From Ferroacidibacillus organovorans (GTDB lineage Bacteria > Bacillota > Bacilli > Alicyclobacillales > SLC66), in the NCBI RefSeq assembly GCF_001642725.1, contig NZ_LSUQ01000001.1:1-64000 (forward strand): a stretch of DNA of 64,000 nucleotides, read 5' to 3'. The position numbers and the translations under genes are program-made. Positions 29,763 to 35,770 of the stretch are shown in pieces (the stretch's first letter is position 1; each line of letters starts with the position of its first letter). The notes below the pieces were generated by a model. It saw nothing but the letters and a program-made list of their open reading frames with translations, had not been told where the DNA came from and did no database searches.

Positions 29763-30415
29763 TGCACGCGCTGTATTCCTTTTTTGCCATCCTTCTCACC
29801 GATTTGGTTCTTTCGGGAGACAATGCGTTTGTGATCGCGATGGCGACACTCCATCTCGCCCCAAGCGCGCGAAAGCGCGCGATGCTTTACGGTGCGGCAG
29901 TCACGATTTTGCTCAGGGTGTTACTCACGCTCGTCCTCGGACGCGCGCTCACGTGGCCGTACTTACAGACGATTGGTGGCTTGCTTTTGCTCTACGTCGC
30001 CTATTCCGTCTTGTTTCATAAGGATTTAAAAGTAGCGTCTGACGAGCAAACAAAGCGCGGCGTTCTGTCAACGGTCGCAACCATTCTAATCGCCGATCTC
30101 ACAATGAGTGCAGATAATGTGGTGGCGGTGGCGGGAATTGCGCAGGGCAATGCAGTGATGACGGCGCTCGGTCTTTTAGTGAGTATTTCTCTTTTGATGT
30201 TTGCCAGTTCTTTGATTGCCAGGCTGATGGCGCGTTTGGCGATTCTGCGATGGATTGGGGCAGGCGTTCTCGCGTGCACGGCGGGCGTGATGTTTCACAG
30301 TGATCCAGGGATCGCTCACTTTTTTGGGGCGCGGTCGATCTACGCGCCGATTTTCGGATTTGTACTTGGATCTGTACTCTATGTCGCGTCGCGCAAATGC
30401 AACGTCAGCTTTTGA
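29759..30415 (+). CDS. TerC-family integral membrane protein
   Basis: A 218-residue, seven-helix TerC/YjbE-type protein. The twin metal-binding motifs DLVLSGDNAFVIAMA (residues 15-29) and DLTMSADNVVAVAG (near 115) are both intact. Bacillus TerC proteins export Mn2+, partly to metalate secreted enzymes. The ATG overlaps the VTT gene stop by 4 nt. It is the last gene of the cation cluster, and its 3' end overlaps the convergent HD-domain gene by 37 nt. Mn2+ as the ion is family knowledge, not shown here. Confidence 0.88.
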   Translation: MMHALYSFFAILLTDLVLSGDNAFVIAMATLHLAPSARKRAMLYGAAVTILLRVLLTLVLGRALTWPYLQTIGGLLLLYVAYSVLFHKDLKVASDEQTKRGVLSTVATILIADLTMSADNVVAVAGIAQGNAVMTALGLLVSISLLMFASSLIARLMARLAILRWIGAGVLACTAGVMFHSDPGIAHFFGARSIYAPIFGFVLGSVLYVASRKCNVSF

Positions 30416-30978
30416 GCAAACGCGATCTGCCAAAAATCCGCTTTCTTTTTTAACAGATGATCTACATCGTCAGGTGAGAGTCCGCTCACAACGAGTGTGA
30501 CCTCGCGGGAGGTGCGCTTGATCTCGTGAAGGACGGCCGTCCCGAGATGTGATCTGTCGAGACCGTCGGCGACGCGCAGGCATGCGCAACAGGCGAGCAG
30601 GTCGCGCGCTCTGCCAATTTTGTCGATCCAAGAAGGTTTAACGCTGCGCCTGTGATAGAAACACAATGTTGCGACATCCTCTTTGAGTGTCGCATCCCAC
30701 GTGGCCGTCTCGCGCGCGTGTCGGACGATGTAGCGGGAGTGCTTGTGATGGTTTCGCGAATTTATGGAATGCCCCACATCATGGAGATAGCCAGCCAATT
30801 CGAGTGTTAATTGGGCGGCTTGCTGCGCCGCTTCGCCACGCATGCCGAGATAGAGCGTTTGCGCGAACGAGGCGACGCGCATGCAGTGCGCGCGATCGGT
30901 TTGAAAATGGTTCATCGCGCGCAGCGCGTCATGTTTGTATTTTGCGAGTGACAGAGCGACCGAAGTGGGATCTTTCAT
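30379..30978 (-). CDS. HD-domain phosphohydrolase (Ppx/GppA C-terminal type)
   Basis: A 199-residue protein with an HD metal-binding domain: RAHCMRVASFAQTLY (first His), ELAGYLHDVGHSIN (HD pair) and later LRVADGLDRSHLG. The pattern is that of the HD-like domain fused to the C-terminus of Ppx/GppA phosphatases, here as a stand-alone gene at the end of an operon that starts with ppx/gppA. The ATG at 30978 overlaps the stop of the preceding kinase-like gene by 4 nt. It may act on a nucleotide or polyphosphate-related substrate; that is inference. Confidence 0.75.
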   Translation of the reverse strand: MKDPTSVALSLAKYKHDALRAMNHFQTDRAHCMRVASFAQTLYLGMRGEAAQQAAQLTLELAGYLHDVGHSINSRNHHKHSRYIVRHARETATWDATLKEDVATLCFYHRRSVKPSWIDKIGRARDLLACCACLRVADGLDRSHLGTAVLHEIKRTSREVTLVVSGLSPDDVDHLLKKKADFWQIAFAQKLTLHLRDAT

Positions 30979-31673
30979 TTGCGAATCAGGCGTGAGACGT
31001 GCGTGCGCAGGGTCTCCTGCACCTCTTCAATCGCGCGTGTGCCGTCAAGTGTAACAAAATGATAGTCTTCTGCCAGTTCTTCAAACTGCTGTGCGCAAAG
31101 AGACTGATAGCGATGAAAGCTTTCAAACATGTCCGTCGACAAAGAGAGGTCCATGCCAGATTCCCAGTAATCGAGAACGCCGCGTTTTTGAAAATGGCGA
31201 TGCAGCAACACTTCGGGTGTCATATGCAAATAAAACGTGAGATCCGGAATGCGCGCAAAGCCAAACAGCTCTTCTAGCCAGTCAGGATCGGCGCCACGCA
31301 CGGCGTCGCGAACCATCAGCGTAAATATGTAACGATCCGCAAGCACGATAAATCCTGCCCGAAGCGCCGGAATGATCTTGTTTTCCAATTGATCTGCAAA
31401 ATCGGTCGCGTAAAGCAGGCTGAGTGTCGTCTTGCCAAGGACATTGCCCTCTTTTGCTTGATCGATAACACCGCTGACGAGGGTGGAACGCTTGATCCCT
31501 GTGTCCATGACCGCGTGTCCTTCATACTCGAGCCACTGTTTTAATAAAAATGCCTGGGTCGATCGCCCTGAACAGTCGGCGCCTTCGATCACAATCAGCT
31601 TTCCGGCGTACGTCTCATCCTTCAGATAGGGGAGACCTGCGCCGTAGTAGGTTTTCTTCGACTCATCCATCAC
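30975..31673 (-). CDS. Thymidylate-kinase-like protein with altered P-loop
   Basis: A 232-residue P-loop protein of the dTMP kinase fold. The Walker A region reads IEGADCSGRSTQ: the invariant Lys of GKST is replaced by Arg (codon CGA on the minus strand). The DRY motif (VLADRYIFTLMVRDAVRGADPDW) is intact. It is a diverged paralogue of the gene just upstream, sharing LRAGFIVLADRY and the LSLSTD..ESF region. The housekeeping tmk is normally next to holB, so this pair is probably specialised. Order is ppx, kinase A, this gene, HD gene. With the changed P-loop it may bind nucleotide poorly. Confidence 0.72.
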   Translation of the reverse strand: MMDESKKTYYGAGLPYLKDETYAGKLIVIEGADCSGRSTQAFLLKQWLEYEGHAVMDTGIKRSTLVSGVIDQAKEGNVLGKTTLSLLYATDFADQLENKIIPALRAGFIVLADRYIFTLMVRDAVRGADPDWLEELFGFARIPDLTFYLHMTPEVLLHRHFQKRGVLDYWESGMDLSLSTDMFESFHRYQSLCAQQFEELAEDYHFVTLDGTRAIEEVQETLRTHVSRLIRK

Positions 31674-31696
31674 CGTAGCGCTCCTCTCGTCTTTGC

Positions 31697-32404
31697 TTAT
31701 CGCGTGGTTAAATGATAGGGAAGTTCATAATCCGTCAGATGCTTCTCGACGATCTCGCGCACGATGCGCTGTTGTTCTTCAATCGGTTTTGTCGCGTCGA
31801 CGACCGTAAAATGCTCCTCATCGATCATCGCGTCATAGTGATCCTTGATTTTTCCCTGAAACAACTTGAAGCTCTCGATGGGGTCGGTCGAGAGACCGAG
31901 ATCGAGACCCGCCTCATGGTATTTTAACTGTGGACGCCCACTCAAGATGCGATCGAGCGAAACGGCGAGCGGTGTCTGGAAATAAAAGCTGACCGTTGGT
32001 TTGACCGCGAATCCATACATGTTCTTTACCCAGTCCGGGTCACACCCGCGCGCCATGTCACGCGCATACGCGGTGTATACATAGCGGTCAGCAAGGACGA
32101 TGTAACCTGCGCGCAAATAGGGTAGCATCATCTTTTCATAACGGTCGGCAAAATCGCACGCGTGAATCAGACTGAACGTCGTTGGCGTCAACAAATTCTT
32201 TTTCTTCGCCTTTTTATTCGCCGATTTGATGAGTTCACTGGAATTCCACTCTGTAAAAAAGACAGGGTATCCGCGGTCTTCGAGCCAACGTTTCAACAAG
32301 TAAATTTGCGTGCTTTTTCCTGAGCCGTCGTTTCCTTCTACAATAAAAAGTCTCCCCGGATAATGCATGCTGCGGCCGAGTCCACGTGCTTTTTTTAGTC
32401 GCAT
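31697..32404 (-). CDS. Thymidylate-kinase-like protein
   Basis: A 235-residue P-loop kinase of the dTMP kinase fold with a normal Walker A (FIVEGNDGSGKSTQ) and DRY motif (VLADRYVYTAYARDMARGCDPDW). The segment DWVKNMYGFAVKPTVSFYF and the C-terminal half differ from ordinary Tmk, so the nucleotide substrate is uncertain. The ATG at 32404 follows AAGGAG with a long 12-nt spacing. The frame is open further upstream into ppx. It begins 5 nt after the ppx stop, so it is co-transcribed. Confidence 0.75.
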   Translation of the reverse strand: MRLKKARGLGRSMHYPGRLFIVEGNDGSGKSTQIYLLKRWLEDRGYPVFFTEWNSSELIKSANKKAKKKNLLTPTTFSLIHACDFADRYEKMMLPYLRAGYIVLADRYVYTAYARDMARGCDPDWVKNMYGFAVKPTVSFYFQTPLAVSLDRILSGRPQLKYHEAGLDLGLSTDPIESFKLFQGKIKDHYDAMIDEEHFTVVDATKPIEEQQRIVREIVEKHLTDYELPYHLTTR

Positions 32405-32408
32405 ATCG

Positions 32409-33914
32409 TTACGGTGCTCCTTTTTCTGATGAGATGGAAAGCGGGAATCCAAACGCTTTGCGAAAGAGTGGAAGCAAATCATTTGCCGCCTGATACTCAA
32501 GATCGCCTTCGTCCGCGTGCACGTAAAGGACAGCCTGTTTCTTTTCGGTCTTCAGTCGAACCGCCGAAACGCGCTTTTCGTGGCGGCGATCAAGCGCTTC
32601 GGCAAGGCGGACAATCACGCCGATTTTTGTGATTTCTGTAAGATCGTCTTCACTGAGCAAAGTGCGAAACGGCGCACACTGCTTCCGTGTCCTGTTGCGT
32701 CCCTTGTAGGAGGCGGCTGCCGCGACCATCAACAGTTCGCGATGCGTAAGTCCATAAAGGGTGCCGTTTAAGATCAAATAAAAGGTGTGGCGGTCAAAAT
32801 CATAATAGTGAATGTGAATCCCGACACGATGGAGCATAGCGGCCGCATAGAGCAGGTGGAGCCGCGCAGGATCAAGATCACCTCGCTCGCAAAGCGGCGT
32901 TGCAATGGCGAGTGCCAAGTGTGTCACGGTTTTTGCGTGATCGATTGGAACGCGACAGCGTTCGAGCAGATTGTGGACGCTTGTCTCAAGAACGCCTTCG
33001 GTAAGCAGACCGTTGTCAGTGCCTAAGACGCGTGTAAAAAATGTCCCGTCGCGCAGCCCGCGGCCGCTGATGCGCAGCACGGAGGACGCGGTATAGCGCA
33101 TGAGGCTGAGGAGAATCATACCGCCGGGAACGATCAGATCGGCGCGGTCTTTAGAGAGTCCCTCCACCTTTTTGCGCCGGGCGAGCGGTATGTCACCCAG
33201 GTAGGCAACCGTTTCCTCGACATCTGTTTGCTGCATGAAATAATTATGCGTAAGCGCGAGGGGGTAGCCGCTGAGTCCTTGGTGGACGCGCGCAATCGTG
33301 CGGATGGTGCCGCCGATCCCGATCAGTTCCATGTTCTTCGCCTGCGTGAGTAGTTCCACCTGCGGGAAAAGGGTTTGGATGCGCTGCATCATTTGCTCGC
33401 GAGACAGTTGACCTAGATCGCGATTCGCGGTGACTGCGCCAATGGGAAAGGAGTGTGACGCGATAGCCGCTCCGCTCCTGACAAGGGTGACTTCGGTGCT
33501 GCCGCCGCCAATGTCGACGAGCAGCGCATCACAAAGCTTCATGGTGTTGGCCACCGCGCTAAAACCGAGCGCGGCTTCTTCGACGCCAGGGATGACTTCG
33601 ACGTGAATCCCGGTCTCGCGCTCAATGCGCTCGACGATCTCTGCGCGGTTCTTGGCTGCACGTAAAGCGGCGGTTCCCACGGCTTCGATGCGTGTGGCGT
33701 GGTGGGCGCGGCAAAGTCCGATGAAACCTTGTAGTTTCTCGATCAGGTCGCGAATGGCATCCTCTGCGATCGCTCCATCACGCTTGATCTGTTGGCTGAG
33801 TCGCGGAGATGCCTTCTGTTCATCAAGCACGTAATAGGCGCCACTTTGCAAGGAAGCAATGATCGAGAGACGCATGGAGTTTGAACCGATATCAATGATC
33901 CCGGTAACGTTCAC
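32409..33914 (-). CDS. Ppx/GppA-family exopolyphosphatase / guanosine pentaphosphatase
   Basis: A 501-residue sugar-kinase/Hsp70-fold phosphatase acting on inorganic polyphosphate and/or pppGpp. Motifs are IIDIGSNSMRLSI at the N-terminus, EAALGFSAVA, the DIGGGSTEVTLV phosphate loop, and GIGGTIRTIA. The C-terminal 190 residues form the HD-like domain of long family members. The start is GTG 33914, 7 nt after AGGAG, and the family homology starts there. The frame is open to 34100 and would add a TNALRY hexapeptide repeat, judged not to be translated. First gene of the operon with two kinase-like genes and an HD gene. Confidence 0.88.
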   Translation of the reverse strand: MNVTGIIDIGSNSMRLSIIASLQSGAYYVLDEQKASPRLSQQIKRDGAIAEDAIRDLIEKLQGFIGLCRAHHATRIEAVGTAALRAAKNRAEIVERIERETGIHVEVIPGVEEAALGFSAVANTMKLCDALLVDIGGGSTEVTLVRSGAAIASHSFPIGAVTANRDLGQLSREQMMQRIQTLFPQVELLTQAKNMELIGIGGTIRTIARVHQGLSGYPLALTHNYFMQQTDVEETVAYLGDIPLARRKKVEGLSKDRADLIVPGGMILLSLMRYTASSVLRISGRGLRDGTFFTRVLGTDNGLLTEGVLETSVHNLLERCRVPIDHAKTVTHLALAIATPLCERGDLDPARLHLLYAAAMLHRVGIHIHYYDFDRHTFYLILNGTLYGLTHRELLMVAAAASYKGRNRTRKQCAPFRTLLSEDDLTEITKIGVIVRLAEALDRRHEKRVSAVRLKTEKKQAVLYVHADEGDLEYQAANDLLPLFRKAFGFPLSISSEKGAP

Positions 33915-33990
33915 AGATGCACTCCTTGCATAGAGAGATTTCAAAGGGATTTCACGGATCAACCCGTGCGTGCGCGCGAGGCGCACATGG

Positions 33991-34098
33991 CGGTTCGTGT
34001 AACGCAGAGCGTTCGTGTAACGCAGAGCGTTCGTGTAACGCAGAGCGTTCGTGTAACGCAGAGCGTTCGTGTAACGCAGAGCGTTCGTGACACGCGGC
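33991..34098. repeat. 18-bp tandem repeat array (five copies plus a decayed sixth)
   Basis: The unit GCGTTCGTGTAACGCAGA is repeated head to tail: 33991-34008 (first two positions changed), then four exact copies to 34080, then a degenerate copy 34081-34098. Each unit contains the inverted repeat GCGTT-n5-AACGC. The array lies between ppx/gppA and the divergent 98-residue gene, and inside the predicted ppx leader. Confidence 0.92.
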
Positions 34099-34111
34099 AC
34101 ACGTTTTCTGT

Positions 34112-34140
34112 AGTATAGAGTTTGTCCTCGTGAAGAGCAA
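34112..34140 (-). promoter_or_regulatory. Possible promoter of the ppx-kinase-HD operon
   Basis: On the minus strand, TTGCTC (34140-34135) and TATACT (34117-34112) are 17 nt apart. Transcription would start near 34105, leaving the tandem repeats in a 5' leader of about 190 nt. Confidence 0.45.
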
Positions 34141-34180
34141 AACGGGTGACGATTGGGAAAGAAAAAAAGCAGGTGAGATT

Positions 34181-34477
34181 GTGACGAAACGGTTTACCAT
34201 CGATGATGTTGCGGGGATGTTTCAGGTGCGCAAAGAAGACGTGCGGGTGGCACTCGTTCGTCTCCAAGAAATGCGTTCGCTGTCCGCTGAAACCTTTTTT
34301 TATGCGGGAGAGGCTGCGCGGATTGCGCCGTCTGATCTTGATCGCATTCGGCGAGAACTCGGTGCATTAAAAGAGGCGCCCATAAAAGACGAAACCGCGT
34401 CCCAGCGGGGGACGCGGCGTATCATTCGAAAAACCGTGCGGCTTGCCGCAGAGGAAGATTCACCCCCCGACGCCTGA
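34181..34477 (+). CDS. Small HTH-like protein, unknown function
   Basis: A 98-residue protein with a predicted helix-turn-helix-like N-terminus (FTIDDVAGMFQVRKEDVRVALVRL), followed by a helical segment (SDLDRIRRELGALKE) and a basic tail (RRIIRKTVRLA). No family is recognised. The start is GTG 34181 after AGGTGAG; a GTG further up (34130) lacks a ribosome site. It is divergent from the ppx operon across the repeat array, and its end overlaps the GH18 gene by 18 nt. It might be a DNA-binding regulator of its neighbour, but this is only positional. Confidence 0.5.
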   Translation: MTKRFTIDDVAGMFQVRKEDVRVALVRLQEMRSLSAETFFYAGEAARIAPSDLDRIRRELGALKEAPIKDETASQRGTRRIIRKTVRLAAEEDSPPDA

Positions 34478-35770
34478 GAGAATTGCGGAGACGTCGCTCG
34501 CATTGCCGAGCCCCAATTGCCAGATTGCGACACCGCCGTATCCGGCAGCGGTTGTCATGGCGGCGCGTTCGCGCAGAGAGCTTGTCGTCTCAAGCCACAT
34601 CCACTGGGTTTGCGCGCCGACGTGAAACGTGTCGACGGTAAGCCCTGATGTCGGGTCATTTCGCAGCGATGCGGGGTGACTGTTTTTTATGCTCGCTTCC
34701 TGCGACAGGGAGAGCGCTGTGGAAGAAAAATTGCCAGGACTGCCAGACCACAGCCTCGTATAAAACGGGATGCCCGCGAGAATCTTTGCCTTTGGCACAC
34801 CCCCTTGTGCGGTTTTTTGAAGTTCTTGCATCATCCAGGGGATGCCTGCCACTGGTCCTGAAAATGGGTCACCCGCGTAGTATTGATCGTAGGTCATCAC
34901 GACCAAGTTGTCGGCGATGGCGGCGAGGGCTGGACGGTTGTAGACGAGGCCCCAGTTCGGGTCGCTTGAAGGAACGGACACGTCAACACTGATCGTTTTT
35001 CCCATGGCGTGAAGGAGTGTCGCCAGATTTTTTGTCAATTGGGTGAGGCGTGGCGAATCAGATGGAATCATATCCTCAAAGTCGAGGTTGATGCCATCCA
35101 CGTGGTCTCGGGCGACGTCAGCGAGGATGGTCGAGAGGAAATTCGCCTGTGCGGTCGGACTCTCAAGAAGTGCTGTGGTACGCGCCGGATTGAAACCTGA
35201 ATCGACAATTGGCCATACCTGTTCTCCGTGCGCGTGCGCAATCTGCACCGCTTGGGCCGAGAGTTGGTCAGAGACTGTGCCGTTTTGTGAAGTTACATTA
35301 TAAACCATCGGCGCATAGACGGAGATCGGATAACCGGCGCTTCCGGTGTCTGTCAGTGCATACGGATCGTCGAAACCGAGCACAATTTCTCCATTGATTT
35401 TATTCACAGGCTGTATGATTCCGGTTTTGACGGTAAATAAACGGGCGTCAGAAAGCGGAGCCGTGACCGTCTGACCCGCGTTTTGAAACGAAAAGGTTTG
35501 CGCGGTCGTCGCTGTGACACTCACGAGCGTATTGGTTTGTATGGCCGGCGCGTTTTGTAAACGACTCGTGATGAGCGCGTATGTAACGTTTGGCGGCGCA
35601 TCTGGCGCGACGGTTGCTTTTTGCATCTGGCGGGCTGTCGTGTCAATCGTGCGCGTGGGAAGCGCACGGGCGCTTTCAATGAATGAATACGCGCGTGTAG
35701 AGGTAGAGACGGCGAGCAGCAGAGTAAGGGTGATCACACCCGATAGGCGATAGATGAGCTTATCGTTCAT
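34460..35770 (-). CDS. Secreted glycoside hydrolase family 18 protein
   Basis: A 436-residue protein with a Sec signal peptide (hydrophobic core about 9-22, possible cleavage near TRAYS). The GH18 catalytic motif DGINLDFE lies at residues 225-232, with Glu232 as the proton donor. Other family strands are VVMTYDQYY, ILAGIPFYTR and GGVAIWQLGLG. This is the YaaH/YdhD-like group that acts on N-acetylglucosamine polymers such as spore or cell-wall peptidoglycan. No LysM repeats are visible; the N-terminal 120 residues are unassigned. The substrate is not certain. Confidence 0.85.
   Translation of the reverse strand: MNDKLIYRLSGVITLTLLLAVSTSTRAYSFIESARALPTRTIDTTARQMQKATVAPDAPPNVTYALITSRLQNAPAIQTNTLVSVTATTAQTFSFQNAGQTVTAPLSDARLFTVKTGIIQPVNKINGEIVLGFDDPYALTDTGSAGYPISVYAPMVYNVTSQNGTVSDQLSAQAVQIAHAHGEQVWPIVDSGFNPARTTALLESPTAQANFLSTILADVARDHVDGINLDFEDMIPSDSPRLTQLTKNLATLLHAMGKTISVDVSVPSSDPNWGLVYNRPALAAIADNLVVMTYDQYYAGDPFSGPVAGIPWMMQELQKTAQGGVPKAKILAGIPFYTRLWSGSPGNFSSTALSLSQEASIKNSHPASLRNDPTSGLTVDTFHVGAQTQWMWLETTSSLRERAAMTTAAGYGGVAIWQLGLGNASDVSAILSGVGG

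Follow-up and report, generated by a model that had tools for sequence, protein, structure and literature searches.

An 18-bp tandem array in the predicted ppx leader of Ferroacidibacillus organovorans looks like a recently expanded minisatellite

Bacterial minisatellites, or VNTR loci, are built from units of roughly 10-60 bp repeated in tandem, head to tail, and they serve in MLVA typing. In marine Beggiatoaceae, intergenic TAACTGA direct repeats reportedly form 169 sets in one draft genome and are said to have been suggested as regulatory. In Mycobacterium tuberculosis, tandem repeats in the dop, lpdA-glpD2 and cysG-efpA promoters vary in copy number within populations, and this variation is linked to expression (PMC12817950). 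Here we describe an array of 18-bp units ahead of the exopolyphosphatase gene ppx of F. organovorans, in a window of 64,000 nucleotides (the whole stretch of DNA that was analysed). Our literature search on tandem repeats in an exopolyphosphatase leader or untranslated region returned nothing related, judged by title.

The array shares with bacterial minisatellites a short head-to-tail unit, near-identical interior copies and diverged edges, as well as a copy number that differs between related genomes, which here means a comparison across two species. With the Beggiatoaceae repeats it has in common that short direct repeats occupy an intergenic stretch, but there are 169 sets in that genome and one locus here. 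The M. tuberculosis repeats are likewise tandem units of variable number in a gene control region. However, the cysG unit there measures 54-56 bp against 18 bp here, and those repeats are described as promoter elements, whereas our array lies downstream of the predicted transcription start (PMC12817950). The features of the locus are as follows.

32409-33914, minus strand: ppx, encoding a Ppx/GppA phosphatase of 501 aa with a GTG start, assigned from profile matches
33915-33990, minus strand: rest of the ppx leader, with an AAGGAG Shine-Dalgarno sequence; agrees with the sister species at 60 of 75 aligned bases
33991-34098, minus strand: 18-bp tandem array, four exact units and edge units with 2 and 4 mismatches, from unit comparison and TRF
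34112-34117, minus strand: predicted ppx -10 box, TATACT; TATACT or TATAAT stands ahead of ppx in all ten leaders read
34135-34140, minus strand: candidate ppx -35 box, TTGCTC, with a 17-bp spacer; 3 of 6 letters match the consensus, and the letters are identical in the sister species
34181-34477, plus strand: gene of a divergent 98-aa protein with no Pfam or NCBIfam match, adjoining ppx in 9 of 10 ppx-bearing family genomes, this one counted

Six 18-bp units make up the array, quoted here on the minus strand, from which ppx is transcribed. Compared with GCGTTCGTGTAACGCAGA, the units at 33991, 34009, 34027, 34045, 34063 and 34081 carry 2, 0, 0, 0, 0 and 4 mismatches, respectively, and in the register GTTCGTGTAACGCAGAGC the array holds five exact units. 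TRF reported the head-to-tail arrangement typical of a minisatellite (period 18, 5.4 copies, 100% match, 33993-34089) with a score of 194, while dinucleotide-shuffled windows (n=50) gave a maximum of 66 and a median of 46. The four exact and two decayed copies described in an earlier note on this DNA were thus borne out, and both of its palindromes, the GCGTT-N5-AACGC inverted repeat and the AACGC-AGA-GCGTT joint, were present as claimed. An assembly artefact is an unlikely source of the array, since its 97 bp fit within a typical short read.

The downstream gene product matched PF02541 (E 8.9e-51), and its best NCBIfam match was TIGR03706 with 263.9 bits, under the curated cut-off of 307. The start of ppx is most likely the GTG at 33914, which is preceded by AAGGAG. 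Among the ten family leaders, the -10 box reads TATACT in eight and TATAAT in two. The ppx promoter is a prediction in which two -35 registers tie in this genome; among the other genomes, another hexamer pair scores higher in G014 and another pair ties in G015 and in the sister species (G001). Because TTGCTC matches the consensus at only 3 of 6 positions, a simple promoter scan found no ppx-strand promoter at its threshold. The predicted transcription start lies a few bases before the array, and the array should therefore belong to the ppx 5' UTR; if transcription starts near 34105, it would occupy nucleotides 8-115 of a leader of about 191 nt. Its placement between the predicted ppx promoter and the start codon fits the comparison with relatives.

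Several other signals and genes surround the array. A small inverted repeat, ATGCA-AGGAG-TGCAT (33917-33931), carries the ppx Shine-Dalgarno sequence in its loop; the repeat has identical letters in the sister species, and its stem is predicted at -3.3 kcal/mol. On the plus strand, a promoter-like GTGACA-18-TAGTAT (34087-34116, 9 of 12 matches) overlaps both the array and the ppx -10 box; its -35 box falls within the diverged last unit, and its letters are identical in both species. Of 61 genomes searched, 40 gave a match to the 98-aa protein, whose start lies at about 34181; in G037 and G054, both from the other family of the order, its gene and ppx share a contig but are separated by more than 1 Mb. 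Two thymidylate-kinase-like proteins and a 199-aa open frame follow ppx on its own strand (30379-32500). Five relatives have a second place near ppx that weakly matches the C-terminal part of Ppx.

We compared the locus with the sister species, the only other genome of the genus searched, whose Ppx is 88% identical. At the same place it has three diverged units, with 7, 3 and 5 mismatches. These are too diverged to be reported by TRF, which covered the stretch, and their homology is judged from where they lie, their register and the alignment. Since the end unit there agrees with the diverged end unit here at 15 of 18 positions, the edge unit at that end is probably ancestral to the genus pair. 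If the array were a slippage-prone locus, as the earlier note proposed, then copy number should differ between related genomes, and in this one pair it does (six against three diverged units); its accompanying suggestion of tuned expression was not supported for a route through translation, as described below. From the -10 box to the ppx start there are 197 nt here and 142 nt in the sister species, a difference of three units plus 1 nt. A ppx match was found in 10 of 18 family genomes and in none of the other 8. In the eight family genomes outside the genus that have one, the -10 box lies 6-46 nt from the matched ppx start (placed by tblastn, with a possible error of a few codons), and none of these eight leaders contains an array. 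Of 59 genomes of the order, this one alone has a doubled unit (at most 3 mismatches). In the alignment with the sister species, identity was 42/54 in the array and 60/75 in the remaining leader, 18/20 around the -10 box and 21/27 around the -35 box, 19/35 at 34146-34180 and 50/60 at the start of the next gene. These figures give no hint that the array is more constrained than the rest of the leader.

Outside the array, no place in this genome matched a single unit within 2 mismatches, and one stray place at 3 mismatches appeared for each of the two registers searched. The sister genome, searched in one register, matched at its leader unit with 2 mismatches; at 3 mismatches it had four stray places, against 6 in the control. 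Dispersed palindromic repeats of the REP or BIME kind require many copies, and we rejected them given that none lay within 2 mismatches outside the array. We also filtered tandem arrays by a score of at least 60, or at least 3 copies with a period of at least 9. Two arrays passed in 236,991 bases of this genome (the window and nine further stretches): the one in the ppx leader, and another of 21 bp and 6.9 copies (L071:5246-5389), which lies in an 836-codon open frame, reads GSGTTTP and is probably coding. In 97,840 bases of the sister genome the filter kept three rows, which fall at two places outside the ppx leader.

The palindromes in the units invite the reading that the array is a set of operators, at which a dedicated repressor would bind GCGTTN5AACGC in the initial transcribed region between two divergent genes. 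Each unit does contain the short inverted repeat, but the frequency of arms of at least 5 bp was 3.6% among shuffled units and 3.4% among window 18-mers treated as circular (5000 each), and tandem repetition of any unit that holds both arms necessarily creates the second palindrome at the joint. GCGTTN5AACGC occurs 12 times in this genome; with the four in the array set aside, 8 sites compare with 12 for the reversed control, and the sister species has 7 against 5. For AACGCN3GCGTT the corresponding figures are 12 in total, five in the array, 7 elsewhere against 10, and 3 against 17 in the sister species. An operator regulon was rejected for want of any excess of either palindrome over the reversed control in this genome. 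The arms are intact in none of the three sister units, one of which (GTGTT/AACGC) is a single base off, and we regard an operator array as very improbable. The idea that the array is translated, adding TNALRY repeats to the N-terminus of Ppx, is hardly credible. In this genome the frame runs open from 34100 through the whole of ppx, which confirms that part of the earlier note, but five of the six unit frames are open anyway. If the repeats were coding, the frame should stay open in relatives; in the sister species, the sole relative with units, a stop that follows the array closes it, 12 codons separating this stop from the ppx start, and a translated extension was rejected on this ground. 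Moreover, ppx has a canonical AAGGAG-GTG start at 33914, and the listed upstream start, GTG 34100, has no room for a ribosome site because no more than about 5 nt separate it from the assumed transcription start.

Folding gave a similar picture for selected RNA hairpins. Against dinucleotide shuffles the array folded well on the ppx strand (z -2.60, 2/200 as good) and on the other strand (z -3.31, 0/200). Tandem arrays of shuffled units, however, folded at least as well in 82/500 cases on the ppx strand and 85/500 on the other, as did arrays built from window 18-mers in 120/500 and 70/500, and the proposal of selected hairpins was not sustained. The fold of the whole leader was unremarkable (z -1.38, 17/200 shuffles as good). 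Rfam searched over 33600-34500 gave no known structured cis-regulatory RNA above its gathering score; the sole match (14.4 bits, gathering 100, 33754-33882) lies below it and outside the array. Assuming a transcription start near 34105, predicted Shine-Dalgarno accessibility ranged over 0.77-0.83 for 2-12 units and was 0.78 with the array removed, which argues against tuning of expression via translation. Shuffling the letters of the array lowered it from about 0.8 to 0.51 (sd 0.19, n=50). Since the sister leader is predicted at 0.55, the effect of leader structure may differ between the two species; predicted start codon accessibility was 0.17 there against about 0.5 here. Gain and loss of units might instead tune the level of ppx mRNA, by affecting promoter escape or by shielding the 5' end of the transcript, as a phase-variation-like switch of polyphosphate turnover. 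We consider this rather unlikely. The array begins about 8 nt past the assumed transcription start, and a site just past the promoter is where copy number could matter, yet ribosome-site exposure is predicted to be unaffected by 2-12 copies and the eight other family leaders have no array. The two species differ in copy number, but with one genome per species behind that comparison. By analogy with the M. tuberculosis promoter repeats, whose variation within populations is linked to expression (PMC12817950), a modest effect of copy number on ppx mRNA is possible. The more elaborate version, a genus-specific, slippage-driven rheostat acting via mRNA stability or promoter escape, with a self-paired ladder keeping the ribosome site open and heritable variation in polyphosphate stores, appears improbable.

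We therefore think it quite likely that the array is a minisatellite in the predicted ppx 5' UTR that expanded in this lineage and is near-neutral or has a modest effect on ppx. We favour the minisatellite because the interior units are perfect and the edge units diverged; because three diverged units stand at the same place in the sister species, with a -10-to-start difference (197 vs 142 nt) of three units plus 1 nt; because the eight other family leaders measure 6-46 nt and the doubled unit occurs in 1/59 genomes of the order; and because the array (42/54) is conserved no better than the other leader (60/75) and Shine-Dalgarno accessibility is flat with copy number. The common ancestor of the two species would already have had diverged 18-bp units after the ppx promoter. 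In the present lineage the interior units would then have been copied recently, most likely by replication slippage, perhaps aided by the unit's short inverted repeat, leaving four to five identical units flanked by diverged edges. Recent instability is suggested by the comparison of one genome per species. If transcription starts near 34105, the transcribed array would pair with itself to form a ladder of 5-bp stems, altering the length of the leader. Because exposure of the ribosome site is predicted to be unchanged, the array is probably neutral or of small effect. We found no evidence of a conserved function: the array has the look of an ordinary bacterial minisatellite that expanded recently, and it could serve as a strain-typing marker and little beyond. 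If copy number does alter ppx expression, however, polyphosphate turnover would be under the control of a simple variable switch.
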